Source: Nocardia anaemiae NBRC 100462
Lineage (GTDB): Bacteria; Actinomycetota; Actinomycetes; Mycobacteriales; Mycobacteriaceae
Length of the DNA: 64,000 bases
Direction of reading: 5' to 3'
Assembly (NCBI RefSeq): GCF_001612725.1
Contig: NZ_BDAZ01000041.1
Span: forward strand, 1 to 64,000
Shown here: piece after piece, positions 22,476-41,649 of the stretch
Layout of the letters: each line of letters begins with the position of its first letter
How positions within the stretch are numbered: the stretch's first letter is position 1
Program-made: the position numbers and the translations under genes
Notes under the pieces: generated by a model
Database searches by the model: none
Seen by the model: only the letters and a program-made list of their open reading frames with translations
What the model was told of the DNA's origin: nothing

Positions 22476-22949
22476 TCACCCCCTGACGCTCGCGAAACCC
22501 ATGGGCGGCGTGGGTGACGGGCCCGTGCGCAGTACCGGGCGGAAGTCGGGAAGTGCGGGCAGTACATCGGCATTGCGGGCGGCGTAGCAGCGCACACGTG
22601 GGAGTGCCCGGGTGACCTCGGCTCGTTCCACCGGTTCGGCATCGATGAACCCGATGGTGTCCAGCTCCAAGCCGAGGGTGTGCGCGATCCGCAACACCGA
22701 CGCCGATTTGCGGCCCCAACCGATCTCGATGGCCGAGAACATGTCGTAGAGCCCGTACCGGTAGAGCTTTTTGAGGGTGAGGTCGCGGTCGCTGCGGCTG
22801 GCAACGGCGTGCCAGATGCCGCGGTCGCTGAGCTTCAGCAGCGTGCGCAGGGCGGCGGGGCGTGGTGCGCCGCTGGTCGCGTCGCAGACGACACCATCCC
22901 AGATGGTGTTGTCCAATTCCCAGACAAGACATCGCAGAGCCGGTGCCAT
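22476..22949 (-). CDS. Small HAD-IIIC/FkbH-like protein with altered nucleophile
   Basis: A 157-residue HAD-superfamily protein. It opens LRCLVWELDNTIWDG, where the family has DxDxT. The first, nucleophilic Asp is Glu here (WELDNT), while the second Asp is kept. AVASRSDRD is motif II, GRKSASVLRI carries the motif III Lys, and GFIDAEPVERAEV is motif IV with one acidic residue lost. These changes predict weak or no phosphatase activity. FkbH-like proteins in polyketide clusters load phosphoglycerate-derived units on ACPs. Here it is the last minus-strand gene after the 19-kb cluster, 164 nt behind the SDR, so membership in the operon is likely but not certain. Confidence 0.75.
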   Translation of the reverse strand: MAPALRCLVWELDNTIWDGVVCDATSGAPRPAALRTLLKLSDRGIWHAVASRSDRDLTLKKLYRYGLYDMFSAIEIGWGRKSASVLRIAHTLGLELDTIGFIDAEPVERAEVTRALPRVRCYAARNADVLPALPDFRPVLRTGPSPTPPMGFASVRG

Positions 22950-22958
22950 CGCCTGCTC

Positions 22959-23054
22959 CTATCGGTTGGTCATCGCTGCCTCTGCTGCCGTGTCGTCGGC
23001 GGACGGGCTACTGCAAACCATCCAGCGAACGGCACGTGCCGGACAAGCCCCCAC
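22959..23054 (-). pseudogene. Possible ferredoxin C-terminal remnant or small ORF
   Basis: In the 164-nt gap between the SDR and the small HAD gene, a GTG-started reading of 31 codons begins VGACPARAVRWMVC. CPARAV with a preceding short helix resembles the last cysteine region of the single-cluster ferredoxins that serve P450s, and a P450 is in the cluster. The N-terminal cysteines are missing and the ribosome site is weak. It may be a decayed ferredoxin gene or chance. Confidence 0.22.
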
Positions 23055-23113
23055 TTTCTCGGGAACCCATGCGGCCGAGGTGATAATACCGATATCGCCG
23101 GTGAATGCTCCTG

Positions 23114-23890
23114 TCAAAAGCCGTAATAGCGGCGGACGAGCCGTTCGTAGACCCGAGCGGGCGTGAATCGTCGGGTCCAGAACGAGAGCCGAACGTCGCT
23201 GCCGCACAGGTAGGTTTGCCGCGGTTCGGCTGCTTCCAGGATTGTCCGCACTTTTCTGGCTACCGTCTCCGCGGACTGTCCGTCCTCGAGATATCCGGTG
23301 ACGCGCGCCAGCACCGAAGTCCGATCGGCGGTGTATGCCTCGATCGGATCGGCAACGCGCGCAGCGGAATCGATGATGGGTGTCACCGTCCACCCCGGCG
23401 CGAGCACCGAGACGTGGATACCGAGACCGGCGGTCTCCATCCGCATCGCCTCGCCGAGACGTTCGATGGCGGCCTTGCTGGCCGAGTACCAGCCGCCGTA
23501 GGGTTCGGCGATCGCGCCCGCACCGGAGCTCACCAGGATCACCCGTCCGTGGCCCTGCGCACGCATGATCGGCAGCACTTCGCGCAGCACGCGGTGGGTG
23601 CCGATCACATTGGTATCGATGAGGGCGGCGGCCTCGTCCGGATCGGTCTCCTCCACCGAACCGACAATGCCGTAGGCGGCGAAGGTGACCACCGCATCGA
23701 TGCCGCCGTGCCGTGCGTGCGCGGATTTAACCCAACTCCGCACCGCCTCGCTGTCACGGACATCGACCGCACTCACACCAGCCCGCGCGACCTTGTCGCC
23801 GCCCTCGACGGTATAGCCGACGCGCGCGAGGTATTCGACGGTCGCCGCGCCCATACCATTGGCAGCGCCGGTCACCAGGACGACGGTCAC
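23114..23890 (-). CDS. SDR family oxidoreductase (cluster reductase)
   Basis: A 258-residue short-chain dehydrogenase with VVLVTGAANGMGAATVEYL (cofactor), TFAAYGIVGS in place of the NAG motif, ILVSSGAGAIAEPYGGWYSASKAAIE with catalytic Ser/Tyr/Lys, and a long substrate loop. The GTG at 23890 overlaps the TGA of the lipid-kinase gene (GTGA), showing it belongs to the operon. In this setting it could reduce the 3-ketone made by the oxoamine synthase to a 3-hydroxy-2-amine, the step done by 3-ketosphinganine reductase in sphingolipid synthesis. That role is inference from neighbours. Confidence 0.85.
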   Translation of the reverse strand: MTVVLVTGAANGMGAATVEYLARVGYTVEGGDKVARAGVSAVDVRDSEAVRSWVKSAHARHGGIDAVVTFAAYGIVGSVEETDPDEAAALIDTNVIGTHRVLREVLPIMRAQGHGRVILVSSGAGAIAEPYGGWYSASKAAIERLGEAMRMETAGLGIHVSVLAPGWTVTPIIDSAARVADPIEAYTADRTSVLARVTGYLEDGQSAETVARKVRTILEAAEPRQTYLCGSDVRLSFWTRRFTPARVYERLVRRYYGF

Positions 23891-24819
23891 AGCGCACACA
23901 CCTGCAACACGCGGGGCAGCACCTCGAGGCGCGCCGATTCCACAATCGTGATCTCGCCATCCAATTCGAGCGGCGCCGGTGCGGCGGGGCGCATTTCCAC
24001 CGCGGTGTCCCGACCGCAGGTAGCGAGTGCGGAACCCCTGAATCTACCGCGGTAAAGACCCGCGATCAGCCCCAGAATCCGTGCCCGACCGGCGGCTTCC
24101 CAGATATTCACATCGAACATGCCGTCCGTGTGGGTGACTGGTGTGTCGTAATACATGCCCCCGGCGAAGTGGATGCTCTTGAGCACACCGACATTCGTGA
24201 TCGGTGCGGTGTGTACCCAGTCGGATCCGCGCAGTTGGATGGCGAGTGGCTTGTGGGTGGCGATATTGCTCAGCGCGGTTGCGATGATGGCCGCCTCGAC
24301 ATTGCGGGATTTCAGCCAGCCGATCGGCCCGCGCGCGTTGTTGAACGAATGATTGCCTGCCGCAACGAGACCCATGCTCGCATTGAGCAGGAAGTAGCGG
24401 ACCGTACGGGTGCCGTCCGGGAGCAGCATGGTGGCCTTGCCGACGTCGACCAATTCGGGCGCACCGAGCCGGACCGGGATATCGGCGATGCGGGTTCGCC
24501 CAGGTTTGTGGAAATCGTTGGAACTGCCGAGACCGATCGCGCCGAGTGCGACCGATCCTGCCCCGTGCCGTGGTCGATCCGTCGACGGGTCCATGATCGC
24601 ATTGAGGACAAGGTTGACCATGCCGTCGCCGCCCGCCGCGACGATCACCTCGGGTGGATCCGACTCGAAACTCGCCTGGACCAGCTTCATCGCTTGTTCC
24701 GCGTCACTGGGCATTTCGACGGTCAGATCGCTATACCGCTCGCGCAGCACGCTTTCTACCGGACGCCACCGCTGCAACGCCGTCCCGGCATTGGACTGTG
24801 GATTCAGGACGACGAGCAT
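23887..24819 (-). CDS. Diacylglycerol/sphingosine-kinase-like lipid kinase
   Basis: A 310-residue DAGK catalytic-domain protein. It has MLVVLNPQSNAGTALQRW at the start, VIVAAGGDGMVNLVLNAIM with the GGDG nucleotide loop, AIGLGSSNDFHKPG (the family GTxNDF is here GSSNDF), and the C-terminal LELDGEI strand. The family, which includes YegS, DgkB and the eukaryotic sphingosine kinases, phosphorylates lipid hydroxyls. AGGAGG lies 5 nt before ATG 24819, and the gene overlaps the HAD gene by 16 nt. Within the cluster it may phosphorylate the terminal hydroxyl of the amino-alcohol lipid or attach phosphate to a lipid intermediate. Confidence 0.85.
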   Translation of the reverse strand: MLVVLNPQSNAGTALQRWRPVESVLRERYSDLTVEMPSDAEQAMKLVQASFESDPPEVIVAAGGDGMVNLVLNAIMDPSTDRPRHGAGSVALGAIGLGSSNDFHKPGRTRIADIPVRLGAPELVDVGKATMLLPDGTRTVRYFLLNASMGLVAAGNHSFNNARGPIGWLKSRNVEAAIIATALSNIATHKPLAIQLRGSDWVHTAPITNVGVLKSIHFAGGMYYDTPVTHTDGMFDVNIWEAAGRARILGLIAGLYRGRFRGSALATCGRDTAVEMRPAAPAPLELDGEITIVESARLEVLPRVLQVCAL

Positions 24820-25526
24820 GATTCCTCCTCGATTCCGAGCCACTCGCGCAGCCGAGGCCAATCCCCCGTACGTACCAGGCTCGAATATTCCTGTGGGACA
24901 GCATGTTCCGGCACATTCACCAGAAAGACGGGAACTCCGATTCGCGCTGCCGGTGCGTCGTTCGCGGCGTCGTTGCCGATCATCACGCACTCCCCCGGTT
25001 CCGCACCGAGCCGATCCAGGAGTTCTCGGTAGAACTCGATGCGTGGTTTCGAGCGGCACATATTCTCGCCGCTGGTCCGAAAGGTGAACGCGGACGGGTC
25101 GAAGCCGCCCCAGCCGAGCCGGGTGGTGACCGTGCTGTCCGGCCACAGCGGGTTGGTCGCAACGACCTGTACGGTGCCGACTTCTCGGAGCCGGGTCACC
25201 GTGTCCAATGCCGACGGCTCCGGTGGAAAACAATGGCGCAGGCGCGGAAAACCCGTCTCCGCCAGACTCTTCAGGCGAGCCGCCACCGCATCGGCTTCGA
25301 CGCCGAGCCGTTCGGCGAGCAGTCGAACCATCAGGTCGGTGTTGGTGTGCTCGGTGTCATTGGCCCGCACCTGCTTCAGCACGCCGGACAGCACACGCAG
25401 GAACCGATGCGGCGGGGTCAACTCGCGAAATGCCTGCGCGGCCGCCAGCGGCATCAGCGCCTTGAATCGGCGGCGATGCAATCGCACCAAGGTGCCGTCC
25501 AGGTCCCACAGCACTATGCGGTTCAT
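24804..25526 (-). CDS. HAD family phosphatase
   Basis: A 240-residue haloacid-dehalogenase-type hydrolase with all catalytic elements. WDLDGTLVRLH carries the DxD nucleophile pair, VVATNPLWPD is motif II, SKPRIEFYRELL supplies the motif III Lys, and MIGNDAANDAPAARIG is motif IV. The cap domain is helical (about residues 20-100). The ATG overlaps the stop of the nucleotidyltransferase gene (ATGA). It probably removes a phosphate from a pathway intermediate. Unlike the small HAD at 22476, all key residues are present. Confidence 0.85.
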   Translation of the reverse strand: MNRIVLWDLDGTLVRLHRRRFKALMPLAAAQAFRELTPPHRFLRVLSGVLKQVRANDTEHTNTDLMVRLLAERLGVEADAVAARLKSLAETGFPRLRHCFPPEPSALDTVTRLREVGTVQVVATNPLWPDSTVTTRLGWGGFDPSAFTFRTSGENMCRSKPRIEFYRELLDRLGAEPGECVMIGNDAANDAPAARIGVPVFLVNVPEHAVPQEYSSLVRTGDWPRLREWLGIEEESCSSS

Positions 25527-26926
25527 TCCTGACTGTCCAGTACCGCTTGTAGATCCGCGCGGGTCAGGCCCAACTGTGCCGCGTATTCGTCGATGCCAGG
25601 ACGTTCGGTCGCGGTCGTCCCGATTCCGGCCCGGCTCGCCAGTTCCGAACCATATGCGGCACCGAGATCGAAGACGGTCTTGGCCAAAGCCGCCGGAAAC
25701 AGCCAGCGGCCCAGGTCACGCTGGAAGACCCTGGTCAGCCGGTAGGGGGCGGAAATGCGTGCGCCGAGAGCCGATAGCGGCGACGGGTTGCGCAGCGAAC
25801 TCATCTTGCGCGCCTCAACACCGGGCACCAGCAGCAGGTCCGACCACAGGCGACCGAAGCGGTCGCGCTTCTCGTTCGCGAGGGCGGTCATATTGAATTC
25901 GGTGTAGGCCTTTTCGATGCGTGCGGTGTGGGTGGAGCGGCTGCGCAGCAGGGCATGGATATCGGCGGTCTTGCGCGCGGTGTCGTAGCGGGTGAAGCGG
26001 TTGATCCTCGGTTCGATCCAGCTGATCAATGCCGCGAACTCCGGTATCGGAACGAGCCGATCGGCCAGCGAAAGGGCGTGGTACATCAGGCTTTCGCTGC
26101 CCGCCTTGGCGATTTCACCGGCCAGCAGGTCGTAGTCGAGGTCGTCGGCGTGGCGGGCCAGGTTCCAGATGTCGGCGAGCTCGCGCACACCGGTCTTGTA
26201 GTAGGGCAGGTGGATTCCGAGGTGGTGCAGGTTGTCCGCATGCGACATGGCCCACGCGGGCACACCGTAGAAGTCGATGCGCCGCACGCGCTTCCAGATC
26301 GCGGTGTAGTCGACGGTGTACGGGGCCAGCGGGGTGATCAGGCCCCAGTGCGTTCCGACGACAAGCGCTCCGTCGCGAGAGACGAACGACGGCAGATGGT
26401 GTGAGCGTTCGGCGCGGACCTTCGGGGCCTTGCCCAGCAGTTCGGAGGTGGCGAAAAGGCCGAGCTCCCGGTAGATCTCGATGACGGTGTCGACCTGGTC
26501 GAGTTCGACGAGGATGTCCAGGTCGTTCATGCGCTTGTAGCGCGGGTCGTGGTAGATCTCCGCCGAGAACAACATGCCCTTGAGCACGACACAGCGCACG
26601 CCGCGTTCGTCGAGGCGACGCAACAGTTCCCGAGCACCGGTCAGGCGTCGATCGTTCACGGCGGCGATGTGATCGGTGACGCTGGCGAATTGCGCGCGCA
26701 CCAGTTCGGGAACGAGGTCGTAGAGCTGCTCGGATTCCAAGCGGCGTTGCACCAGCGGAACGGTCGCATTGAGCTCGGCGAGTTCGAAAACCTCGGCCCA
26801 ATCGGTGACCTCGTCGGCGAGCTTCGCCAATGCGGCCCGCTCGTCCGAGCTCGGCTCGGCCAGTGCCGCGTGCACCAGCAGCCGTTCCGAAGCCGTGCCG
26901 CCCGCGGCGATTGCGGTTCCGGTCAT
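25523..26926 (-). CDS. Nucleotidyltransferase family protein (PF14907-like)
   Basis: A 467-residue protein with an N-terminal helical region, then VVLKGMLFSAEIYHD and KRMNDLDILVELDQVD. The D-D-hydrophobic pair of the uncharacterised nucleotidyltransferase family PF14907 (NTP_transf_5) sits around residues 155-175. HHLPSF and HWGLI follow, and then helical segments to a Lys/Arg-rich C-terminus. Members occur in capsule, lasso-peptide and other specialised clusters, where a nucleotidyl or related transfer is supposed but rarely shown. It begins 1 nt after the oxoamine synthase stop. It may adenylate or otherwise activate an intermediate. Confidence 0.8.
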   Translation of the reverse strand: MTGTAIAAGGTASERLLVHAALAEPSSDERAALAKLADEVTDWAEVFELAELNATVPLVQRRLESEQLYDLVPELVRAQFASVTDHIAAVNDRRLTGARELLRRLDERGVRCVVLKGMLFSAEIYHDPRYKRMNDLDILVELDQVDTVIEIYRELGLFATSELLGKAPKVRAERSHHLPSFVSRDGALVVGTHWGLITPLAPYTVDYTAIWKRVRRIDFYGVPAWAMSHADNLHHLGIHLPYYKTGVRELADIWNLARHADDLDYDLLAGEIAKAGSESLMYHALSLADRLVPIPEFAALISWIEPRINRFTRYDTARKTADIHALLRSRSTHTARIEKAYTEFNMTALANEKRDRFGRLWSDLLLVPGVEARKMSSLRNPSPLSALGARISAPYRLTRVFQRDLGRWLFPAALAKTVFDLGAAYGSELASRAGIGTTATERPGIDEYAAQLGLTRADLQAVLDSQE

Positions 26927-26927
26927 A

Positions 26928-28250
26928 TCAGCGGATTCCTTCTTCGGTCGAACCGATTTGTTCGGGATGGAAGGCGAAGCGGCGGGCGACGGCCGAGATC
27001 TTCGCCAACGCGAAATCCAGCTGATCGCGGCTGAGGGTGGCCATCATGCTGACCCGCAGTCGCTGCTGTTCGCGCGGAACGGCCGGAAATTCGACGCCGT
27101 TGACGAAGACCCCCTCGGCGTGCAGCGCCGCGACGACCTCGGCGACGGCTAGGCGCTGCGGCACCAGGAGCGGGATGATCGCGGTCTGCGGATCGACAGC
27201 GAAACCCATTCGACGCAGCTCGCGCACGAAATAGTCGACATTGTCGTGCAATTGGCGGATCCGCTCCGGATGCGCGTCGATGAAATCGATGGCGGCGAGT
27301 ACCGAGGCGACGACCGCGGGCGCCAGCGATGCCGAGAACATGTACGAGCGCGCGAAGAACCGCAGCGTATCCACCAGATCCTTCGAACCGGCGACGAAGC
27401 CGCCGGTGGTGGCGAAAACCTTCGAGAAGGTGCCCATATACAGCTCGACCGATCCGGCCCCCATGCCGAAATGCTCAGCGGTGCCATGGCCTTTCGCGCC
27501 GAGCACACCGGTGCCGTGCGCGTCGTCGATGGCCAGCCAGGCCCCGAACGAATCGCACAGCGCCCGAATCTCCGGCAGTGGCGCGATATCGCCGTCCATC
27601 GAATACACGCCCTCGACGGCGACCACGATATTCGCGCCCGGATTGCGCCAGCGGATCTGCATGAGCCGGTGTCGCAGATGCCGGAGATCGTTGTGCTCGA
27701 AGGCCATCGAGCGGACCCGCCCGAGTTGGATGCCGTCGTAGAGGCTGGCATGGCTCTGCTCGTCATAGAGCAGGATGTCGCCCTTGCGCAGCAGGCCGGT
27801 CACCCAGCCCACATTGGCGGCGTAGCCGGAGGAGAACACCAGCGCGGATTCGCAGCCCTTGGTCTCGGCGAGGCGTTCCTCGAGCCGCCGGTGCACCGAG
27901 GTGGTGCCGTTGAGCAGTGGCGGTCCGCCGTGGCCGACACCGAATTCGCGCACGGCCCGGACGGCGGCCTCGACGATCTCCGGTTCGTTGCCGAGGCCGA
28001 GGTAGTTGTTCGACCCCAACATGATCAGGTCGCGAACCGTGCCTCCGTCGGGATCGCGAACCCGTACCACCGGTCCCGCCGGTCCGGTGATCTCACGCAG
28101 GACGAATCCGGTGCCGCGTGCGTTTGCGACGTAGGGACGGAATTCTTCGAAGCGCTGTTCGAAGGTGTGCGCGGCGGGATCGAGGTAGTGCTCGAGGCTG
28201 AAGTTCTCGCCGTGCGCGGTCTCGTGCGGTGCGGCTGCGGTGGATGTCAT
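26928..28250 (-). CDS. Alpha-oxoamine synthase (AONS/SPT family)
   Basis: A 440-residue fold-type I PLP enzyme of the 8-amino-7-oxononanoate synthase / serine palmitoyltransferase / KBL family. After about 45 N-terminal residues come LIMLGSNNYLGLGNEP, NGTTSVHRRLEERLAE, FSSGYAANVGWV, LYDEQSHASLYDG, the cofactor DDAHGTGVLG (about 242-250), and GTFSKVFATTGGF with Schiff-base Lys277. The glycine-rich GVGHGGPPLLNGT lacks the usual Arg. The family condenses an amino acid with an acyl thioester, losing CO2, to give an alpha-amino ketone; acyl-ACP can be the acyl donor. The 4-nt overlap with the phosphotransferase-like gene couples it to the cluster. It is not next to other biotin genes, so biotin synthesis is unlikely. 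Confidence 0.9.
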   Translation of the reverse strand: MTSTAAAPHETAHGENFSLEHYLDPAAHTFEQRFEEFRPYVANARGTGFVLREITGPAGPVVRVRDPDGGTVRDLIMLGSNNYLGLGNEPEIVEAAVRAVREFGVGHGGPPLLNGTTSVHRRLEERLAETKGCESALVFSSGYAANVGWVTGLLRKGDILLYDEQSHASLYDGIQLGRVRSMAFEHNDLRHLRHRLMQIRWRNPGANIVVAVEGVYSMDGDIAPLPEIRALCDSFGAWLAIDDAHGTGVLGAKGHGTAEHFGMGAGSVELYMGTFSKVFATTGGFVAGSKDLVDTLRFFARSYMFSASLAPAVVASVLAAIDFIDAHPERIRQLHDNVDYFVRELRRMGFAVDPQTAIIPLLVPQRLAVAEVVAALHAEGVFVNGVEFPAVPREQQRLRVSMMATLSRDQLDFALAKISAVARRFAFHPEQIGSTEEGIR

Positions 28251-30970
28251 GAGCTGTGTTCCTGAACGATGGTTGCGGTTCCGGCCTTGCCGTCGAGAAT
28301 CAGCACATCCCCGCTGGCGACCAGCCGGGTGATGCCCGGAACGCCGACGACGGTCGGTATGCCGAGTTCGCGGCCGATAATGGCGGTGTGTGAGAGCGGG
28401 CTGCCCTTCTCGCTGACCAATCCCCCGGCGGCCACCATCAGGAAGACCCAACCGGGATCGGTACTGGATGCGACGAGGATCTGACCGTCGACGACCACAT
28501 CCGGCTCCGGAGTGGTCAACACCAGCGCGGGGGCTTCGACTCGGCCTGGCGCACAGCCGATTCCGTGCAGCACGCTGCCGGAGTCCCCGGTCGAGGCGGG
28601 ATGGTCGAAGGTCGGATCATTGATGCCGACGGCCGCGATTCCGGCCGTGACGATCCGCGACGGCAGCTGCTCGGCGCGCCACCGCTCGTGATCGCTCTTG
28701 CGGGTGGCGACCGTGCGCGCCGCATCGGTGTCGACCGCGGTGCCCCGGGTGAGGGCCGCGATCTCCTCGTAGGTGAGCCAGAAGATATCGCGCGGGTCAT
28801 CGAGCAATCCGGCCGCGTGCAGCTGCCTGCCGTACTCCCGGAAAACACGCTTGACCAGGCCGAACGAGCGACTGCGACCCAGCCGCATATTCTCGCGCTG
28901 TTTCACGTGCTCGCGCGCGCGGCCGAGGGCGAACCGGAATGCCAACCGTTGCGGCAGCTTGCCACGGAACAGCTTCGCAGCGGTGCGTTCCGCCTCGTGC
29001 CGGATCTGCTTCTCGCGGGCCGCCATCTCGTCGATGTTCTGACCGCCACGCAGGTAGTTGCGCAGCATAGGAACCAGTCGCTCCGGATGTTCACCGAGCG
29101 GATCGGTTTCCAGCTTCAGCTCGTCGACGGTGCGGTCGCCGAACAATGCGATATGCCGCAGGCACGCGCTGTGGAACTCGGCGAATTCGGGCTGTGATAG
29201 CGCTTTCCACACCTCATGCGGTTCCAACGGTCCCTCGAACAGCTCACGCAGCGCGGCATCGGTCCGGACGATCGCGGTCAATGCGAGCGCCGAGCGGACC
29301 GGGTCCACGCTGTCGACACCCTCTTCGCCGCAGAACAATTCGTTACGCAAGGTGATGGCGGCCGTTTCGGTGAGGCCTTCGCGTTCCAGCAGCAGACCGA
29401 CGACGTGGAACATCTGCTGGGCCAGAAAGTCATTGAAGATCTGTACCGCGTAGGCGGGCACGAGTTCGTGCAGGCAGCGTTCCATCCATTCCAGCAGTGC
29501 CTCCGGATCCCGTTCCCGCTCCGGTGTTTCCGAGTTCAGTCGGTGGTCCAGATCGGTGGTGAAGTTCTGGAGTTCGGTGAAGAACGCGCGCAGCCGTCGC
29601 GGTAGCCGCAACCAGCCAGCGGCAATGATGGCGGCGATACGCAAACGCAGCAGATACATCTGGGCCCGGGCCAGACCGTGTTTCGGCGCGGCCGGTCGCT
29701 GGTAGCGGTTCTCGATATTGAGTGCCGCCTCCCAGCCTTCGATGGCGAACTCCATGCCGGGTATCTGCAGGAACAGCCGGTACCAGTTGCTGATGTTGTA
29801 GTAGATGCGGCCGTGCGCGGTGCCGACCAGATAGGGGTAGAGGCTCGCGGCATTGCGTTCGACGATGGCATCGGTGGCACCGAAATCCTTGTGGCAGGCT
29901 CGGAATACCTGCTCATAGGCGTTTCGTAGGATCGAGAAGGTCAGTGGGCTGGACAGACCTGGGTAGGACTCCGCGACATTGACGTTGTCGAAGATCGTTT
30001 CGCGGGCACCGGTCGCGGTGATGGGACGGGCCTGGAGCAGATACAGCACGCCATCGGAGTCATAGGCCCATTCGATATCCTGTGGCGCGCCGAAGGATTC
30101 GGCCAATCCCGTTGCCGTATCGACGAGTTCGAGCACCTGCGCGTCGGCGAGTGCCTGATCGGTGACGGCGGCGATCTGTTCGACGACCGTGCCGGAACCA
30201 TCGCCCGCGACCACGACCCGGCTCTGCTTCTCGGCCACCGAACGGGACACCACCCTGCGCGCGGCGGTGTCGACGAAATAGGTATCGCATTCGACGGTTC
30301 CGGCGACCACGCCTTCGCCCAGACCGAGCGCCGCCGAGACGACGCCCTCGTCCGGGTCGCCGGTCTGCGGGTTGCAGCTGAAGACGACACCGGAGACCGC
30401 GCTGTCGATCAGCACCTGAACCAGGACGGCGCAGTCGATCTCGGTGTTGTCCAGTCCACGATGTGCTCGATAGAACAGCGACCGCTCCGAATAGGCCGAG
30501 GCGAGCACCTCCAGCACGGCCACCGATACATCGGCCGGGGCGATATTGAGCAAGGTGTCGAGTTGGCCCGCGAAGGAGTCGGTCGCCGAATCCTCGCCGC
30601 TCACCGACGAGCGCACCGCCAGCCGCGCACCGGATTGTGCTGTGCGATCAACGATTTCGCGTACACCCGCGGCCAGCTCGGTGTCGATATCCGCCGGGAT
30701 TTCCTGATCGAGGATGATCCTGCGGATCTCCCCCGACACCGCACGCAACGACGCGGGGTCGGTGTGTTCGAGTGAAACCAGCGCCGCGGCAATGGGTTCA
30801 CGGATCGGTCCGAGGATGCGCGCACAAGCGGTGGCGCCGAGCACCACGAACGGTGGCACCCGATGGCCCGCCGCCACCAACCTGCCGAGATTCGCGGCCT
30901 TGGCACCCACTTGCGCCGCCATCGTCGCATCGGCCGCCAGTGCGATATCGCTGACTATTGTTCCGGTCAT
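28247..30970 (-). CDS. Phosphohistidine ATP-grasp enzyme (rifampin-phosphotransferase/PigC-like)
   Basis: A 907-residue protein with a PEP-synthase-like N-terminal ATP-grasp half and a mobile phosphohistidine domain, but no PEP-binding TIM barrel. The N-terminus (1-325) has VGAKAANLGRLVAAGHRVPP, LAVRSSVSGEDSATDSFAG and IEWAYDSDGVLYLLQARPIT. A helical substrate region of about 430 residues follows. The last about 110 residues hold GIGCAPG and KGSPLSHTAIIGRELGIPTV with the carrier His861. This layout is shared by rifampin phosphotransferase and by the condensing enzymes PigC/RedH/TamQ of prodiginine and tambjamine synthesis. It may phosphorylate or ATP-dependently join pathway products. A second copy is a module of the 2015-aa protein. 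Confidence 0.85.
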   Translation of the reverse strand: MTGTIVSDIALAADATMAAQVGAKAANLGRLVAAGHRVPPFVVLGATACARILGPIREPIAAALVSLEHTDPASLRAVSGEIRRIILDQEIPADIDTELAAGVREIVDRTAQSGARLAVRSSVSGEDSATDSFAGQLDTLLNIAPADVSVAVLEVLASAYSERSLFYRAHRGLDNTEIDCAVLVQVLIDSAVSGVVFSCNPQTGDPDEGVVSAALGLGEGVVAGTVECDTYFVDTAARRVVSRSVAEKQSRVVVAGDGSGTVVEQIAAVTDQALADAQVLELVDTATGLAESFGAPQDIEWAYDSDGVLYLLQARPITATGARETIFDNVNVAESYPGLSSPLTFSILRNAYEQVFRACHKDFGATDAIVERNAASLYPYLVGTAHGRIYYNISNWYRLFLQIPGMEFAIEGWEAALNIENRYQRPAAPKHGLARAQMYLLRLRIAAIIAAGWLRLPRRLRAFFTELQNFTTDLDHRLNSETPERERDPEALLEWMERCLHELVPAYAVQIFNDFLAQQMFHVVGLLLEREGLTETAAITLRNELFCGEEGVDSVDPVRSALALTAIVRTDAALRELFEGPLEPHEVWKALSQPEFAEFHSACLRHIALFGDRTVDELKLETDPLGEHPERLVPMLRNYLRGGQNIDEMAAREKQIRHEAERTAAKLFRGKLPQRLAFRFALGRAREHVKQRENMRLGRSRSFGLVKRVFREYGRQLHAAGLLDDPRDIFWLTYEEIAALTRGTAVDTDAARTVATRKSDHERWRAEQLPSRIVTAGIAAVGINDPTFDHPASTGDSGSVLHGIGCAPGRVEAPALVLTTPEPDVVVDGQILVASSTDPGWVFLMVAAGGLVSEKGSPLSHTAIIGRELGIPTVVGVPGITRLVASGDVLILDGKAGTATIVQEHSS

Positions 30971-32370: not shown

Positions 32371-32405
32371 GACTGCGCCTCGCTGGCGCTCGGATGCACG
32401 CTCAT
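32367..32405 (-). other. 12-codon mini-ORF coupling FAAL to P450
   Basis: Its ATG overlaps the FAAL stop and its TGA overlaps the P450 ATG, both as ATGA, so ribosomes could pass FAAL to mini-ORF to P450 without a gap. It encodes MSVHPSASEAQS, and the P450 itself starts MSVQP. The two ATGAGCGTGCA starts look like a small duplication of the P450 start region. It is a likely coupling device or duplication scar, not a functional protein. Confidence 0.45.
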
Positions 32406-34117: not shown

Positions 34118-34368
34118 TGCGCACCCCGCACGTAACGGACGATCTCGCCGACCGTGTTCAATTGTGCCGCAGCGTCTTCCGGAATGACGATGCCGAATGC
34201 CTGCTCCAGCTGAATGGTCAGCTCGATAGCGGTCGGCGAATCCAGTCCGTAGTCGATCAATTGCGCGGACGCGTCGATTTCGTCCGCCGAAACCCACAGC
34301 ACCTCACCGACAATGGCGCGCACCCGCGCCTCGATCTCGGTGGCCGGGGTATCTGCCTGTGTATTCAC
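34114..34368 (-). CDS. Acyl carrier protein (ACP2)
   Basis: An 84-residue acidic carrier protein with the phosphopantetheine site YGLDSPTAIEL (Ser44) and the usual four-helix spacing (VRAIVGEVL, LIDYGLDS, IELTIQLEQAFG, TVGEIVRYV). It sits between the kinase-like gene and FAAL with 4-nt overlaps on both sides. It probably holds the fatty acyl chain delivered by FAAL for the oxoamine synthase or the AAR-like reductase domain. It needs a phosphopantetheinyl transferase from elsewhere. Confidence 0.92.
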   Translation of the reverse strand: MNTQADTPATEIEARVRAIVGEVLWVSADEIDASAQLIDYGLDSPTAIELTIQLEQAFGIVIPEDAAAQLNTVGEIVRYVRGAQ

Positions 34369-35204: not shown

Positions 35205-38200
35205 CGGTCGTCCTCGCGCAGTTGGGCGAGCACGGCCTTGGTGATGTCGGCGGGTGTGTCGGTGCCGTCCAGGCGAATCCAGCCGAACTCCTCCGACAAT
35301 GCCTCCAGCGCATCGTGACTGCGTCGCTGGAAGGCCAGGAAGGTTTCCTCGTCGCCGTAGCCGCTCTCGTAGTCACTGCGCAACTGCTTGCGCCCCAACG
35401 CATCCTGCGGACTCACCGCGAGGTAGAAGGTGCGATCGGGTTCCGGGAATCCGGCCGCCAGCTTGCGCAGCACCACCGGATCGCCGCCGTGCGCTACCTC
35501 GGTGGCGAAGTACTTGTACCAGTAGGCATTCGCCAACAGGATGTCCGGACCGCGTTCGGCGGCGAGGTCGAAGGACAGCTGCATGGCGTGGAAGAGGAAG
35601 TGGGCGCGACTCAGCGGGGACAGCAGTTTCAGGTAGCCGTAGATCTCGGCCGGACTGCGCCACGGCAGCTTCGAGGAGACCTTGGGATCGAGGAATGCGT
35701 CCCAAATGGTCACGGCGGCAACGCTTTGGCCCTGCGCCTCGAATTCCGCGGCGATGCGGGCCACCTGGGTGGTCTTACCCGATCCGTCGGCACCGGCGAT
35801 GCAGATCAGGCGTTTGCGTGCGGTCAGTGGTTCATCCGTTCTGGTGGCCGCCGGGCGTGGATGCTCCGGGGGCTGGGGTTGTTGCCTGGGCTCAGTTGGT
35901 CGTAGCGGCACCGCAGGCGCGACGGGCTCATCCGTTTCGGGGATCGGCGGCTCGTCGGGGACCGGCCGCGGACGCTCCTGTACCTGTGCCGGTTCGTGGA
36001 TCGGCAGCTCGTCCGGGACCGGCCGCGGACGCTCCCGTGCCTGCTCCGGTTCCGCGAGATCGAATCCGTGCGGGTGGTTGCTGTGACCGGGCGCAGGCGT
36101 AACCGGCTCGGATGCGGTCTCCAGCACGCTGATGACCCCCGCACCGCCGTCGACCCGAATCCGCTGACCCGAGCGGACCGCTGTCGTCGCACCCGCGACG
36201 TTCAGCACCGCCGGTATTCCGTATTCGCGTCCGATGACCGCCGCATGCGAGAGCATCCCGCCCACCTCGGTCACCACGGCCGAAACCAGCCCGAGCGCGG
36301 GCGTCCATCCCGGGTCGGTAAACCGCGTCACCAGGATGTCGCCCTCGCGCAGCTGGTCGATATCGGCCAGCGAGGTGATCGCCCGCGCGGTGCCCTCGGC
36401 AATGCCGGGGCTGCACCCGAGTCCGGTCAGATCGCCGTCGCCGATCTCGCGCACCGCGCCGACGGTGACTCCACCGCCGAGCTCATGCGGCGGCACCAGG
36501 TCCCGGTAGCCCGCGTACACCGCACGGCGATAAGCGATCCGCGGTGCGAGCGTCGAGATGTCCGCCCGTCCGGCGGCGAGATCACAGAGCTCGTGGATGG
36601 ATAGCTGGAAGACGTCGTCGGCCTGCTCGAGCGTGCCGGTCGCGGCCAAGCGCACCCCGGCCTCGACGACATACGCGCGCACGACCGCATAGCACTGCGA
36701 CGAGAACTCGCGCATGCGTTCGCGTGCGACGAGATACCGGCGCATCCGCTCGACCTGCTTATCCAAGGCCTTGGCGTGCTTCACCCGCGCCAGCGGCTTG
36801 GCCCGCACCCGCGAGCGCACCGCCGCGAGTTCGTCTTCGTAGCGTTTGCGCTGATCCACCAGCGTCAGATCGGGGTCCGCGGGTGGCGTGCCGTGTTCGA
36901 GCATGCCCGCGATCATCGAGCGCACCCGCTCGGGCGCCTCCGACCAGCGCGGGCAGGTGAGGTCCAGTTCCGCGTCGGCATGGAAGCCCTGCTCATCGAG
37001 GAAGGCATCGAGCGCCTTCGTCCATTCGGGACTGCCGAGGCCGTGATCGCTTGCCACCCGGTGCAATTCGACGATGCCGCGTTGCAGCTGCATATGGCTG
37101 ATATCGGCGAGTCCGCCCATCAGATCGATGGCCGAGGTGGTCGCGCCGGTCGCGGCGTCCACCTTGTCGAGCAGCTGCTTGAAATCGGTCTGCACGCTGG
37201 AGTTGTTGTAGATGGTGGTGAAGTAGGTGCGCTCGGTGGCGGCGTGGAAGGTGAGCAGGCAGTCGGCCAGATCCGCGACGAAGGTGGCCTGGTCGGTATG
37301 CGGCAGTTCGCGTACTCGCTCGCGCCAGACCGCGTATTTCGCAGGCCACTGCGCCGCGAACGCGTCGACCGCGGCCAGTTGATCCTGGTAGCTCTTCTGC
37401 ACGGCCAGCGCCGCTGGCAATGCCCGCGCAATGGTCTTGGTGTTCGTCGGGGTGCGGTGCGGACCATCGGGACCGTAGTCGTTGAGCACACCGAGGTCGT
37501 TGTCGAAATGCTGTTCGTCGAAGCCGGGAATGCGGAAGAAGCACTTCTTCACCGCGCTGACATTCCAGTAGGCGCGGCCGTAGTACATGGCCATCCAGTC
37601 CGGTTCCACGCCCGGTTCGGCGAGCTTCAGCCGCTCGAAGAACTGCTGCATCGAGTACTGGAAGGCGTTGTCGTACAACGAGAACATCATCGGCGTGCAG
37701 ACCCGCGCCGAGACGCCGCCGTCGCGCAGATCGGCGTCGGAGAACTGGTCGATATCGGTGCGCCAGCTGATCGCGGTAATGGCCCGCGCCTGTAGCAGCC
37801 ACAGTTTCCCGTCGCCGTCGATGGCCCATTCGATGTCCTGCGGGCGGTGCCGGTGCGCCTGCACCGCGAGCATGAGGGCGGCGAGTTCGGCGGTGGCGGT
37901 GGCGTTCAGCTCGACATCCTCATCGCCCGCGTCCCGCTCGACCACCGTGCCGTCGAACAGTCGCAGCGTGTATCTGGTCGGGGTGACATGTCCGGAGACG
38001 AGTCGTTCGCCGAGTCCGCGGCAGGCTTCGACGACCGCGTGGTCCTCGATGCCGGTGAGCGCGTCGATGCTGAAACCGACACCGGCACAACGCGCGTCGA
38101 CCATGCGCTGCACCAGGACGGCGACCGAAGCACCGGCCTCGTGATAGCCGCGCCGGGCCAGGTAGGTGCGAACTCGCTCGTTGTGCACCGATTCTCGGCA

Positions 38201-41200
38201 CTGCTCGATATGTTCGCGCAGGGCGGTGACGTCGGTGATATCGAGGTAAGACTCGTACTGACCGGCAAAACTGGCATCATCGAGGTCTTCGAGCACCCCA
38301 CTCGAACGAGCGGCGACCGGGAAGCCGCCCAGTGCCCGGACCCAGCCGTTCAGATCGTCATCGGATACCTCGGCCAGATCGAGATCGGCGGTGATGACGA
38401 AGCCTGGCGGCACCTCGAATCCGGCCACGATCAGTTCGTGCAGGGTGCTCGCCTTGCCACCGGCGCGGTCGGATGCGAAATCGGCCGCGCCGAGGAACAT
38501 CGGGGCGGGTATGGCTGCGGTGGAAGTTTCGGACACAGTGGGAGCTCCTGTCGGATGCAGAACCGGGCGCACATCGTGACGGGCGGCCAGGTCGCGCGCG
38601 GCGCGTACACCTGCCGCGGTCAGGCCGCCATAAGACGGGCTCGGCGTACGCGGTTCGAAACCGAGCAGAACGGTTTCGGCCATACACGCGTAGACGACCC
38701 CGGCGGGCAGCCCGGTTTCGGGAAACGGGGGTGTCTGGCCCAGCGGCAGTGCCATGCGACCGCCGGAGACCAGGGTGATATTCGGTTGCCGGGATACCGC
38801 GGGTGCCACATCGCCGGGGACCGCGAGATCGACCACCAGCACCGGATGGTCGTCGGCCAATTCAGCGGCGGTCACCACGGGCACCGCCGAATTCGTGGCG
38901 GTGAGGACGATGCGACAGGTACGCAGGGCGGTCAGGTCCTCACTGACCGTCACCACGCCGGGCAGACTCGCGGCCACCCGCTCCAGCCGGGACGCCGAAC
39001 CCGTCCGCCCGACCAGGGCGACCGAATCGGCGAGCGGCGCAAGCAGTTCCGCCATGACCGCACCGATATTGCCGAGCGCGCCGAGGATGCCGATCCGGCG
39101 CTGCCCCGGTTCGAGGCGGGCGAGTTCGGCGCGCACCACCTCATAGGCACAGGCCGCGGTGAGCGAATTGCCTGAGGTCACCTTGACGGCGTCCTCCACG
39201 ACATCCCGTGCGGCATCGGTGACGATGGACGTATACCCACCCAGCCCGATTACGCTGGCGCCCAGGGCGATCGCCTGCTCCACCGCCTCCAGCACCAGAT
39301 CGCGCAGCCAGGCCCGATGTCCGGCGCGCTGGCATTCGATGATCTGCTCGGCCGAAATCGGCACCGCGATCAGGCATACCTCGACCGCGGCACCGGTCGG
39401 CGACGTAACGAGCTGTCTGGTCAGTTCGAAGGGTTCGGCCACCCCGCGCAGCCGTTCGAACAGTGCGGCGAATCGGCCGTCGGACCATTCGGCCAGTTCC
39501 GGTGCGAATCTGCGCAGATCCGCGGCGTCGGGCAGGTTGGCGAGGAATGCCACTCTGGTCGGGGCGTTCCAGTCGCGGGCGACCTGGTGGACACGCCGCC
39601 ACGATGGCGACCTGCGTTCCGGCACCGGCCAATTCGTGGTGACCGGTGCGGCCAGGTGCGCGAGCAGTCGGGCGTAGTCGCCACGGTGCAGCACTGCGGC
39701 GAGATCGTCGAGGGCCGACGTCAGCCGGTCCAGCTCCGCGTCGGCGAGGAACGCCGAGGGCTGGACGCGCAGTGTGGTCGGCGCGGAAAGCGTTGGCAGC
39801 ATGCGGATCCGGTGGACGTGCAGCAGATACCCGGCCACCACATACCCGAACATTTCCGGATCGCAGATCTCGCGCAGCAGCGCGGATGTCGGCTCCGGCG
39901 GCGACAGTTCGATGCCCTGCAGTAGCCCGCGCCCCCGCACGGCGAGGATCTCCTCGGGCCAGCGCCGCGCCACCGCGTCGAGTCGGGATCGCAGCCGCGC
40001 GCCGGTATCGCAGATGCGGATCTGGTTGTCCCGCAGCAGGTCCACTGCCGCCTCGGCGACCGCGCAGGACAGATCGTCATCGGCGAAGGTCGAGGTGTGG
40101 TACCGCCCGAAGTCGGCGATCGAGCGCTGCCGGTCGACCAGCAGGGCGGAGATCTTCACCAGCCCGCCGCCCAGCGATTTCGAGAGCAGGTAGTAGTCCG
40201 CGCTCACCTGCGACGGCGATGCGGCGAGGAAGGTTCCGGTGCGGCCCATGCCCGACTGGATCTCGTCGAATACCAATGCCGCCGTGTGCCGATCGGCCAA
40301 CTCGCGCATTGCCCGCAGGGTCGCGACCGGAACCTCGCGTACGCCGCCCTCGCCCTGGATCGGCTCGACGAACACCGCGGCGATCGGCGAGATCCTGGCC
40401 CACGATCGCACCGGCCGACCCGAGCCGTCGAAGGTGATCCGGCATACCGGTCGTAGTTCCTCGGCGAACGCATCGGCCACCGCGTCCGGATCCCAGGTGT
40501 CGAGCCTGCGTCGCTCCGGTCCCGGCACCACCAGGTCCGCGGGCGTGTCGGCCTGCTCGGTCAGGGCGAAGGCACCGGCGGTCTTGCCGTGGAAGGCACC
40601 GGTCAGCGAGACGAAAACCGCTCCGCGCCGCCGCAATTCGTCGATCTCCCGCAGTGATTCGGTGAGGGTCTCGGCGACCGAGCGGTCGTCGTCGGATTCG
40701 TTGTCGGCCAAGGCGATCGGACGAACATCGTGCAGCCCGTCGCGCCGAACCCGGCGCAGGGTGCGCCGCAGTTCGGTCTCCAGGTCGACGAGGGCGCGTG
40801 CATGCGCCACCGCCGCATGCCGGATCGCCGCCTCCACCGCATCGGCGCCGGTGGACCCGAAGGTCACCACGTACTCGCGATCGCTTCCGGCGGCCACTGC
40901 CTCCGAAAGCCTTCGGGCAAGTCGAGCGGCCCCGGGCCGGACACTGCCCTGGGAGACGAATGGCGTCCGCTGATTCAGCCGCGCGGTCGCCACCCGCACC
41001 AGCGTCGGATGGTTGTGCCCGAACAGCGCGGCCCCGAAGCCGCCGACAAGATCCAGTACCCGGGTCCCGTCCGGCCGGATCAGGTAGTCACTTTCGGCAC
41101 CCGCGTACACGACATCCAGATGGCACGCACGGAGCAGCCGAGCCAGTCCGGGACGGTTGTATCGAGCGAAATCGTCGAATAATTCGTCTTCGGGAACAAT

Positions 41201-41248
41201 GGCCGAGGAATTTATTTGTTCCGAAAACAGAACGCCCGCCGACACCAC
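35201..41248 (-). CDS. 2015-aa fusion: aminotransferase / acyl-ACP reductase / phosphohistidine ATP-grasp / TMK-like kinase
   Basis: Four modules in one chain. (1) Residues 25-520: class III aminotransferase with VFDEIQSGMGRTG and YLLSKSLGGG (PLP Lys357). (2) Residues 555-895: resembles cyanobacterial acyl-ACP reductase AAR, with GLGGYTSIV (668-676), VTSGNSLTA, Rossmann GALGNIG (723-729) and VYACMAETVLLGFE, whose Cys855 matches the AAR thioester-forming Cys. (3) Residues 916-1710: ATP-grasp plus mobile domain, with GGKASTLHELIVAGFEVPPG, AARSSGVLEDLDDASFAGQY and GGMLSHAAVIGREYGIPAV (carrier His1668). (4) After a Pro-rich linker (1711-1809), a P-loop kinase with GADGSGKT (1819-1826). Modules 1 and 2 together would turn acyl-ACP into an alkyl amine via the aldehyde. 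The GTG start follows the ACP1 stop directly; no internal start or frameshift is seen. Confidence 0.85.
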   Translation of the reverse strand: MVSAGVLFSEQINSSAIVPEDELFDDFARYNRPGLARLLRACHLDVVYAGAESDYLIRPDGTRVLDLVGGFGAALFGHNHPTLVRVATARLNQRTPFVSQGSVRPGAARLARRLSEAVAAGSDREYVVTFGSTGADAVEAAIRHAAVAHARALVDLETELRRTLRRVRRDGLHDVRPIALADNESDDDRSVAETLTESLREIDELRRRGAVFVSLTGAFHGKTAGAFALTEQADTPADLVVPGPERRRLDTWDPDAVADAFAEELRPVCRITFDGSGRPVRSWARISPIAAVFVEPIQGEGGVREVPVATLRAMRELADRHTAALVFDEIQSGMGRTGTFLAASPSQVSADYYLLSKSLGGGLVKISALLVDRQRSIADFGRYHTSTFADDDLSCAVAEAAVDLLRDNQIRICDTGARLRSRLDAVARRWPEEILAVRGRGLLQGIELSPPEPTSALLREICDPEMFGYVVAGYLLHVHRIRMLPTLSAPTTLRVQPSAFLADAELDRLTSALDDLAAVLHRGDYARLLAHLAAPVTTNWPVPERRSPSWRRVHQVARDWNAPTRVAFLANLPDAADLRRFAPELAEWSDGRFAALFERLRGVAEPFELTRQLVTSPTGAAVEVCLIAVPISAEQIIECQRAGHRAWLRDLVLEAVEQAIALGASVIGLGGYTSIVTDAARDVVEDAVKVTSGNSLTAACAYEVVRAELARLEPGQRRIGILGALGNIGAVMAELLAPLADSVALVGRTGSASRLERVAASLPGVVTVSEDLTALRTCRIVLTATNSAVPVVTAAELADDHPVLVVDLAVPGDVAPAVSRQPNITLVSGGRMALPLGQTPPFPETGLPAGVVYACMAETVLLGFEPRTPSPSYGGLTAAGVRAARDLAARHDVRPVLHPTGAPTVSETSTAAIPAPMFLGAADFASDRAGGKASTLHELIVAGFEVPPGFVITADLDLAEVSDDDLNGWVRALGGFPVAARSSGVLEDLDDASFAGQYESYLDITDVTALREHIEQCRESVHNERVRTYLARRGYHEAGASVAVLVQRMVDARCAGVGFSIDALTGIEDHAVVEACRGLGERLVSGHVTPTRYTLRLFDGTVVERDAGDEDVELNATATAELAALMLAVQAHRHRPQDIEWAIDGDGKLWLLQARAITAISWRTDIDQFSDADLRDGGVSARVCTPMMFSLYDNAFQYSMQQFFERLKLAEPGVEPDWMAMYYGRAYWNVSAVKKCFFRIPGFDEQHFDNDLGVLNDYGPDGPHRTPTNTKTIARALPAALAVQKSYQDQLAAVDAFAAQWPAKYAVWRERVRELPHTDQATFVADLADCLLTFHAATERTYFTTIYNNSSVQTDFKQLLDKVDAATGATTSAIDLMGGLADISHMQLQRGIVELHRVASDHGLGSPEWTKALDAFLDEQGFHADAELDLTCPRWSEAPERVRSMIAGMLEHGTPPADPDLTLVDQRKRYEDELAAVRSRVRAKPLARVKHAKALDKQVERMRRYLVARERMREFSSQCYAVVRAYVVEAGVRLAATGTLEQADDVFQLSIHELCDLAAGRADISTLAPRIAYRRAVYAGYRDLVPPHELGGGVTVGAVREIGDGDLTGLGCSPGIAEGTARAITSLADIDQLREGDILVTRFTDPGWTPALGLVSAVVTEVGGMLSHAAVIGREYGIPAVLNVAGATTAVRSGQRIRVDGGAGVISVLETASEPVTPAPGHSNHPHGFDLAEPEQARERPRPVPDELPIHEPAQVQERPRPVPDEPPIPETDEPVAPAVPLRPTEPRQQPQPPEHPRPAATRTDEPLTARKRLICIAGADGSGKTTQVARIAAEFEAQGQSVAAVTIWDAFLDPKVSSKLPWRSPAEIYGYLKLLSPLSRAHFLFHAMQLSFDLAAERGPDILLANAYWYKYFATEVAHGGDPVVLRKLAAGFPEPDRTFYLAVSPQDALGRKQLRSDYESGYGDEETFLAFQRRSHDALEALSEEFGWIRLDGTDTPADITKAVLAQLREDDR
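35941..36054 (-). repeat. 57-nt tandem repeat, two copies, in the linker
   Basis: Copies at 35941-35997 and 35998-36054 encode two near-identical 19-residue units with the core ERPRPVPDE, inside the Pro-rich linker before the C-terminal kinase domain of the 2015-aa protein. The copy number probably varies between strains and sets linker length. Confidence 0.75.
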
Positions 41249-41512
41249 TTACGCCCCTATACCAGAGTGACGTTCCACGGCGGACTTGGCGACCACGCAG
41301 TCGATTACGTCGCGCGCGGTATGCAGGGTCGCGGCTTCCGCATCGGAGATCTCGATCCCGAACGTGCGCTCGAGTTCGATGACGAGTTCCGCCGAGCGAA
41401 CCGAGTCCAAGCCATAATCCAGCAACGGTGTATTCACATCGATAGATGGCACCTGTAATCCTCGCGAAAAGAGCTCGCGCACCCGTGTACCGACGTCGTT
41501 CAACCCGGTCAT
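41249..41512 (-). CDS. Acyl carrier protein (ACP1)
   Basis: An 87-residue carrier protein with DYGLDSVRSAELV (phosphopantetheine Ser37) and helix spacing typical of ACPs (LNDVGTRVRELFSRG, IELERTFGIEIS, TARDVIDCVV). ATG 41512 is preferred; a GTG at 41527 adds five Arg-rich residues. It directly precedes the 2015-aa gene, whose GTG follows its TAA with no gap, so it likely feeds the AAR-like reductase. It shares only the ACP fold with ACP2, suggesting two acyl-ACP pools. Confidence 0.92.
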   Translation of the reverse strand: MTGLNDVGTRVRELFSRGLQVPSIDVNTPLLDYGLDSVRSAELVIELERTFGIEISDAEAATLHTARDVIDCVVAKSAVERHSGIGA

Positions 41513-41649
41513 CGCACGTCGCCCCACGCGCTCGAACCTGCCGCGTCCACCGTGCGCGCCGCGCGGGCACAGACCATCGAATCCACCGCGCCTGCCAGGA
41601 ATACTCGCTGTTCAACGCGGAATTCGTTGTCAGCCGAGACTGCGATCAC
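41509..41649 (-). CDS. Small ORF, possible first gene of the cluster
   Basis: A 46-codon reading (VIAVSADNEFRVEQRVFLAG... to ...AWGDVR) begins at GTG 41649 after a GGAGGG Shine-Dalgarno at 41658-41653. It ends in a TGA that overlaps the ACP1 ATG as ATGA, exactly like the other junctions of this operon. Third positions are fairly GC-rich (about 70%), lower than in the main genes but clearly above the intergenic sequence upstream. It contains one Cys and has no signal peptide or membrane segment. No family is recognised; it could be a coupling leader peptide or a small accessory protein. Confidence 0.45.
   Translation of the reverse strand: MIAVSADNEFRVEQRVFLAGAVDSMVCARAARTVDAAGSSAWGDVR

Follow-up and report, generated by a model that had tools for sequence, protein, structure and literature searches.

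A co-inherited twelve-gene operon of Nocardia encodes a candidate pathway for a nitrogen-containing lipid

A stretch of 64,000 nucleotides from Nocardia anaemiae NBRC 100462 (contig NZ_BDAZ01000041.1, positions 1 to 64,000; the window), part of a genome of 8.6 Mb, was analyzed by gene calling and family scans. It contains an accessory operon of Nocardia, composed of 12 minus-strand genes at positions 23114-41512. Transcribed from 41512 to 23114, these encode acyl carrier protein 1 (ACP1), a 2015-aa fusion protein, a TMK-like kinase (TMK1), acyl carrier protein 2 (ACP2), a fatty acyl-AMP ligase (FAAL), a cytochrome P450, phosphohistidine dikinase A, an alpha-oxoamine synthase (AOS), a PF14907 nucleotidyltransferase, a HAD phosphatase, a DAGK-like kinase and a short-chain dehydrogenase/reductase (SDR). 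The sequences themselves show the enzyme classes, the kept catalytic residues, the four-domain fusion and the co-inheritance of the genes. We consider it somewhat better than an even bet that it makes a nitrogen-containing, probably phosphorylated lipid by the two-branch route given below, without a polyketide synthase (PKS) or nonribosomal peptide synthetase (NRPS).

Conservation and distribution of the operon

The PF14907 gene served as marker. It was found in 28 of 150 Nocardia genomes (the window's own included) and in 3 of 60 relatives; a search of 401 genomes of the family gave 6 with the gene, every one of them Nocardia. Fourteen of the other 27 marker-positive genomes were opened for comparison, and each carried all 12 genes in the same order. 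The lowest identity of any gene to the window was 50% (SDR in genome G1115); AOS stayed at 76% or above throughout. Pairwise dN/dS, calculated according to Nei-Gojobori, was 0.05-0.16 for the 12 genes against genome G009 and 0.07-0.34 against genome G561, so that each of the genes is maintained as a protein. The grouping is more than chance, since gene order is kept in 14/14 genomes and dN/dS is low. A single co-inherited operon of lipid-amine type, as proposed in an earlier sequence-only reading, is thus supported by gene order and by the marker distribution; homologous genes scattered over other genomes, the pattern that would have spoken against it, were not what was found.

The segment from ACP1 to the HAD gene was also present in N. 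xishanensis, N. beijingensis, N. abscessus, Nocardia sp. CY41, Nocardia sp. CNY236 and N. amamiensis, whose stored stretches end at the HAD gene; at least two of these loci probably belong to the same strains as genomes of the set above. No copy was found outside Nocardia in the samples searched. When 296 genomes of the phylum were searched with the aminotransferase-reductase part of the fusion protein, only two partial relatives came up in addition to the window. A TMK1 profile run on 396 phylum genomes matched the window's own genome only, and plasmid searches with three operon proteins gave distant matches only. In a scan of 84,980 species genomes with two peptide patterns, full-length relatives of the fusion protein occurred in Nocardia only among the best 80 of 550 relatives, although the lack of a match elsewhere in such a scan is no proof of absence.

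The fusion protein

The four parts of the 2015-aa protein, aminotransferase, acyl-ACP reductase (AAR), dikinase B and TMK-like kinase 2 (TMK2), lie in one uninterrupted frame in 14/14 other genomes. Invariant in the window and seven orthologues were the pyridoxal phosphate (PLP) lysine K357, the glycines of the GxxGxxG motif (G723, G726, G729), C855, the phospho-histidine H1668 and the TMK2 P-loop lysine K1825. The aminotransferase part gave CrmG as best PDB match (1.2e-62 over residues 43-528), followed by PigE (4ppm). The AAR part matched the reductase part of PigE (2.4e-18) and cyanobacterial AAR (3.8e-7), with C855 aligned to the catalytic C294 of the latter. The feature typical of TamH and PigE, an aminotransferase joined to an acyl-thioester reductase, is present, and 4ppm matches both parts.

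The aminotransferase-AAR half has the same domain order as PtTamH of the tambjamine pathway, given in excerpts of PMC9594044 as transaminase, then thioester reductase; the same excerpts state that PtTamA and PtTamH turn a C12 acid into a C12 amine. With this order and the kept AAR cysteine, assignment of this half to the TamH type was borne out. By analogy, the front steps from acyl-ACP to aldehyde to amine are a well-founded prediction.

A relative of the aminotransferase-AAR half was also observed in genome G186 (L115:6043-17836, L116:1314-7528), together with FAAL, type I PKS, P450, MFS and MMPL genes, in a cluster resembling one for a lipid amine.

FAAL, AOS and other enzymes

Family scans confirmed the enzyme classes named beforehand (FAAL, two ACPs, oxoamine synthase, P450, SDR, lipid kinase, HAD, PF14907, dikinases and TMK-like kinases). 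FAAL belongs to its family by sequence; its top PDB match was 3pbk ('Fatty Acyl-Adenylate Ligase', 2.5e-87), and FadD32, FadD28 and FadD23 were likewise among the 18 PDB chains listed. AOS was nearest to serine palmitoyltransferase (SPT) among PDB chains (3a2b, 2e-83). The PLP lysine (in a GTFSK motif), a His and an Arg were aligned with 3a2b.

In the PF14907 protein, NDLDI was invariant in the window and seven orthologues, and a profile search found no PDB relative at E 1. Elsewhere in the genome lies a second, weaker PF14907 protein (L002, G000:C29:77587-78084; 31.8 bits, cut-off 31.2). The TMK1 P-loop reads GIDG[S/A]GKSS in the window and seven orthologues; a profile search with TMK1 found nothing in the PDB. 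Neither kinase reached the dTMP kinase cut-off of 83.25 bits (TMK2, 41.9; TMK1, 28.3). On a plasmid of Streptomyces sp. NBC_01435 (L117:17222-33281), a TMK1 relative (37%) has an HMG-CoA-reductase-APH fusion on one side and a FAAL-PKS on the other.

The dikinases

Only PPDK_N and PEP-utilizers domains were listed for the dikinases. Family scans found no C-terminal pyruvate-binding domain in either, and identification as a true phosphoenolpyruvate synthase was rejected. The two proteins scored 309.6 and 278.1 bits with the RedH model (cut-off 1350), 281.9 and 266.7 bits with the PigC model (cut-off 1300), and 292.2 and 298.1 bits with the model of rifampin phosphotransferase (RPH; cut-off 999). 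Among 296 genomes of the class, RedH exceeded its cut-off in one. In an alignment, both dikinases keep the phospho-His, RE motif, ATP-grasp Lys and Arg columns common to the RPH and RedH rows, and because these are kept, the first half of the dikinase chemistry is probably intact. We take these columns to correspond to His825, Arg666-Glu667, Lys22 and Arg117 of LmRPH, which itself lies outside the alignment. In excerpts of PMC4844700, these residues are described as catalytic or positioning residues of RPH.

A quick tree of 54 rows was calculated from 38 chosen loci of the 74 (L041-L114); L047, L061, L079, the second L042 dikinase and RPH_L122 were dropped as long or short. The RedH branch is long, and the tree holds no PigC or TamQ row. 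Dikinase A fell next to L075, a protein of a planctomycete, and dikinase B next to L041-L043, which are from Bdellovibrionota. At these last loci (Bdellovibrionota/Proteobacteria), which hold the closest relatives of dikinase B outside the operon, no other operon gene was found, and the layout of the ORFs gave no further clue.

Two further gene neighbourhoods of dikinases were observed. In N. mexicana (L092:10001-21124) and Kutzneria (L083:10010-20785), a dikinase lies with a FAAL fused to a nucleotidyltransferase-like region, an NAD_binding_4 reductase, an NDK-like kinase and a UbiA-like gene; a homologous stretch of N. aurantiaca (L078:10001-20775) matched in the same genes. The NTP_transf_2 match of L083 is weak (20.8 bits, cut-off 21), and UbiA is below cut-off in L092. 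These loci represent a second type of FAAL-dikinase cluster in Nocardia and Kutzneria. In 23 of the 74 loci, L052 and L068 included, a dikinase lies in a conserved neighbourhood with UbiA-like and DUF3419/BtaA-like genes, to which an HMG-CoA-reductase-like gene and a membrane protein are often added; the carriers include Acidobacteria, Planctomycetota, Verrucomicrobia, Cyanobacteria and Rhodobacterales. This neighbourhood looks like an undescribed lipid pathway; a literature search on it found nothing. The N. mexicana, Kutzneria and N. aurantiaca loci, the Streptomyces plasmid and the G186 cluster point to a role of such kinases and dikinases in pathways of fatty chains, but do not fix the reaction.

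Proposed route and alternatives

In the proposed route, FAAL would adenylate a long-chain fatty acid and load ACP1 and ACP2. In the first branch, which is probable, the SPT-like AOS would form a 2-amino-3-ketone by condensation of acyl-ACP and an amino acid. Reduction of this ketone by the SDR would give an amino alcohol of sphingoid-like type, on which the DAGK-like kinase would phosphorylate a hydroxyl, and P450 and HAD phosphatase would tailor the product. In the second branch, the AAR part of the fusion protein (Cys855) would reduce acyl-ACP to the aldehyde, and the class III aminotransferase would convert the aldehyde into a primary alkylamine, the reaction known from TamH. Dikinase B may then spend ATP via phospho-His1668 on this amine, either joining it to a second half in the manner of TamQ or placing a phosphate that is extended by TMK2. 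Dikinase A, TMK1 and the nucleotidyltransferase may perform a comparable activation on the other half. These uses of the dikinases, TMK-like kinases and PF14907 are inferred, and what the dikinases do is the least certain part of the route.

Several points weigh against this route. The aminotransferase-AAR unit might act on the same chain as AOS instead of on a second branch. AOS lies below every NCBIfam cut-off (SPT model, 361.6 bits against 640; bioF, 367.1 against 426.45), and since bioF scores as high as SPT, family scores do not fix the amino acid as serine or another; the sphingoid-like logic proposed earlier is supported by the closeness to SPT among PDB chains. For the SDR, whose class was assigned correctly, the KdsR model (KDhSphingRedKdsR) was the third-best NCBIfam match at 148.3 bits, far below its cut-off of 400, and the protein did not pass as a 3-ketosphinganine reductase. 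AlphaFold models of PF14907 (mean pLDDT 50.0) and TMK1 (52.0) were of too low a quality for use. The columns kept in RPH are kept in RedH as well, so these residues cannot separate condensation from phosphotransfer, and in the tree neither dikinase groups with RedH or RPH; the two lie on separate branches and are not close paralogues.

Condensation and phosphotransfer are close rivals. The sequence-only reading had named the condensing enzymes TamQ and PigC among its parallels. Membership of the dikinases in that family is not supported by their scores, far under the RedH and PigC cut-offs, or by their tree positions; the 'conjugated' product remains a guess, as neither dikinase is a recognisable member of PigC or RedH. 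It does not follow that they are not condensing enzymes, because the RedH branch is long and PigC and TamQ are outside the tree. A serious competitor, whose chance we put a little short of even, takes the dikinases for lipid phosphotransferases: each, with a TMK-like kinase, would build a mono- and then a diphosphate, to which PF14907 would add a nucleotide, yielding a phosphorylated or nucleotidylated aminolipid without C-N joined halves. Two dikinases alongside two TMK-like kinases, one pair on a single chain, agree with this explanation, as do the separation of both dikinases from RedH in the tree and the phosphorylation of a hydroxyl by RPH described in excerpts of PMC4844700. The N. mexicana and Kutzneria loci, with the homologous one of N. 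aurantiaca, point the same way, a dikinase being set there beside the FAAL-nucleotidyltransferase-like fusion, the acyl reductase and the NDK-like kinase. However, dikinase B follows straight after the amine-forming unit on one chain, which is the order TamH, then TamQ, and the limits of the tree reduce the value of the separation from RedH. At the 23 UbiA/BtaA-type loci, moreover, where the dikinase is of the wider branch of dikinase A, the membrane protein might supply the kinase steps, leaving the dikinase another role; this protein gave at best a weak DUF92 match (two of five tested, below cut-off).

A strict sphingolipid operon, in which AOS would be SPT, the SDR a 3-ketosphinganine reductase, the DAGK-like protein a sphingoid-base kinase and the rest would tailor a ceramide-like membrane lipid, is improbable. 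Supply of substrate as acyl-ACP agrees with known bacterial SPTs, and both the PDB match of AOS and the rank of the KdsR model for the SDR favour this explanation. Against this, AOS and SDR are under the family cut-offs, no ceramide-forming acyltransferase was seen in a search confined to the 12 proteins of the operon, aminotransferase-AAR, dikinases and PF14907 have no place in a sphingolipid pathway, and presence in 28/150 genomes of the genus is patchy for a core membrane lipid. Still less credit is given to a pathway of tambjamine or prodiginine type, in which AOS would help to make a heteroaromatic half and a dikinase would join it to the alkylamine. The tam cluster does contain TamA (adenylating), TamH, TamD (a PigH homologue) and TamQ (terminal condensing), according to excerpts of PMC6667630. 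Domains for a ketosynthase, a prolyl dehydrogenase or a methyltransferase, however, are absent from the 12 operon proteins, which include one AMP-binding protein only, and the dikinases are under the RedH and PigC cut-offs. A prodiginine cluster was rejected, as no pyrrole (MBC) genes were found within the operon, whose 12 proteins were the extent of this search.

Comparison with known systems

With the tambjamine YP1 cluster of Pseudoalteromonas tunicata (TamA, TamH, TamD, TamQ), as covered by the excerpts, the operon shares the grouping in a single cluster of an adenylating enzyme with ACP, an aminotransferase-reductase, an oxoamine synthase and an enzyme of dikinase type. It differs in lacking pyrrole genes among its 12, in the fusion of aminotransferase-AAR to a dikinase and a TMK-like kinase, in the additional second dikinase, DAGK-like kinase, PF14907 and P450, and in the low RedH and PigC scores of its dikinases. 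The earlier naming of TamT as the ligase was wrong: in excerpts of PMC6667630 and PMC9594044, TamA adenylates and TamT is a dehydrogenase. With the prodigiosin pathway (PigE, PigH, PigC), the AOS and dikinase classes are held in common in addition to the match of 4ppm to the aminotransferase and reductase parts. In PigE, in contrast, the reductase precedes the aminotransferase, pyrrole genes are again the difference, and PigH carries ACP domains (excerpts of PMC6667630), which the Nocardia AOS does not.

Bacterial sphingolipid genes and PfSgaAB of Pseudomonas fluorescens MYb115 likewise encode an SPT-like AOS with its own acyl supply; unlike the two genes of PfSgaAB (PKS and AOS; excerpts of PMC12134224), the Nocardia operon has supply by FAAL and ACP, a proposed amine branch, dikinases and PF14907. 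The dikinases resemble RPH in their ATP-grasp, central and C-terminal phospho-His domains and the shared catalytic columns, and differ in scores far under its cut-off and in tree branch. FAAL, the aminotransferase-AAR relative and P450 are shared with the G186 cluster, which unlike the operon has a type I PKS and transporters of the MFS and MMPL families; its 36 kb gave no match for AOS, dikinase, TMK or PF14907. Part by part, the operon resembles tambjamine and bacterial sphingolipid genes; the membership tests place it with neither.

Word searches of open-licence papers found no description of a cluster with this gene set. The excerpts of a Nocardia product review (PMC11364655) mention nabscessins from N. 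abscessus and gave no match for 'alkylamine'; those of a FAAL review (PMC11837247) list tambjamine and gave no match for 'oxoamine' or 'sphingo'.

Gene list and neighbouring genes

The operon genes are listed in Table 1.

Table 1. Genes of the operon, by position in the window
Gene product	Length	Position	Strand	Matches and motifs
SDR oxidoreductase	258 aa	23114..23890	-	PF00106 1.2e-33; YSASK motif read from sequence
DAGK/YegS-like lipid kinase	310 aa	23887..24819	-	PF00781 5.6e-16, PF19279 6.9e-12; GGDGM motif read from sequence
HAD phosphatase	236 aa	24804..25514	-	PF00702 3.4e-12; DLDGT motif
PF14907 uncharacterised nucleotidyltransferase	467 aa	25523..26926	-	PF14907 1.9e-38; NDLDI motif
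AOS, SPT-like	440 aa	26928..28250	-	PF00155 1e-52; top PDB match 3a2b
Phosphohistidine dikinase A (ATP-grasp, central domain, phospho-His domain)	907 aa	28247..30970	-	PPDK_N 1.4e-77, PEP-utilizers 4.2e-25
Cytochrome P450	467 aa	30967..32370	-	PF00067 3.1e-73
FAAL	560 aa	32402..34084	-	PF00501 7.9e-66; top PDB match 3pbk
ACP2	84 aa	34114..34368	-	PF00550 1.6e-16; DYGLDS site
TMK1, TMK-like P-loop kinase	279 aa	34365..35204	-	PF02223 9e-6, below cut-off; P-loop
Fusion: aminotransferase ~1-535, AAR 541-900, dikinase B 906-1715, TMK2 1801-2015	2015 aa	35201..41248	-	
ACP1, first gene of the operon	87 aa	41249..41512	-	PF00550 1.8e-12 on shorter ORF; ACP models; DYGLDS site

ACP1 is best read with the start listed, because 7/7 other genomes have an in-frame ATG at the corresponding position. 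A 46-aa open reading frame (ORF) at 41509-41649 overlaps this start, is probably spurious and was rejected as a gene. From the coordinates, the 11 junctions measure -4, -16, +8, +1, -4, -4, +31, +29, -4, -4 and 0 nt; with 5/11 overlapping by 4 nt, the earlier description of almost all junctions as 4-nt overlaps was overstated. The minus-strand cluster described there is real, with 12 conserved genes rather than 14 or 15, and its two TMK-like kinases are both present, the second as the C-terminal domain of the fusion protein and not as a separate gene. Of its HAD phosphatases, the one in Table 1 belongs to the operon. The other, FkbH-like (22476-22949), is short (97.8 bits, cut-off 146.65) and was rejected as a member, being unmatched in the fetched stretches of 10/14 other genomes; it adjoins the operon in the window, G009, G1145 and G1131 only, while the stretch of G561 matched it in part, at the far end.

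A PucR-type regulator (42341-43558) was rejected as a member on the same count of 10/14. Its place in the window, G009, G1145 and G1131 is upstream of the operon; in G561 and L035 it lies further off, on the opposite strand. For 10/14 other genomes, the fetched stretches gave no match to any of the tested genes that flank the operon in the window; some of these genes are common to the window and G009, G1145 and G1131, and also, rearranged, to G561. G1131 carries an insertion between the HAD and PF14907 genes (L148:7130-8446), which contains a 468-residue frame resembling, by eye, a TnpB-type protein with a zinc ribbon.

Implications

If the route is right, steps of sphingolipid type and of tambjamine type would be united for the synthesis of an aminolipid in one Nocardia operon free of PKS and NRPS, and PF14907 and the TMK-like kinases would gain a pathway. 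As the fusion protein joins amine formation and a dikinase on one chain, the action of a dikinase on a fatty amine or alcohol is testable in vitro. Rather unlikely, though worth stating, is a new lipid class in an actinobacterium, with a long-chain alkylamine made and activated on the four-domain enzyme and either linked to a phosphorylated sphingoid-type base or assembled together with one, without PKS or NRPS. If this were true, the operon would be part of a broader theme, in which FAAL, acyl reductase, dikinase, nucleotide-kinase-like enzyme and nucleotidyltransferase act together on fatty chains.

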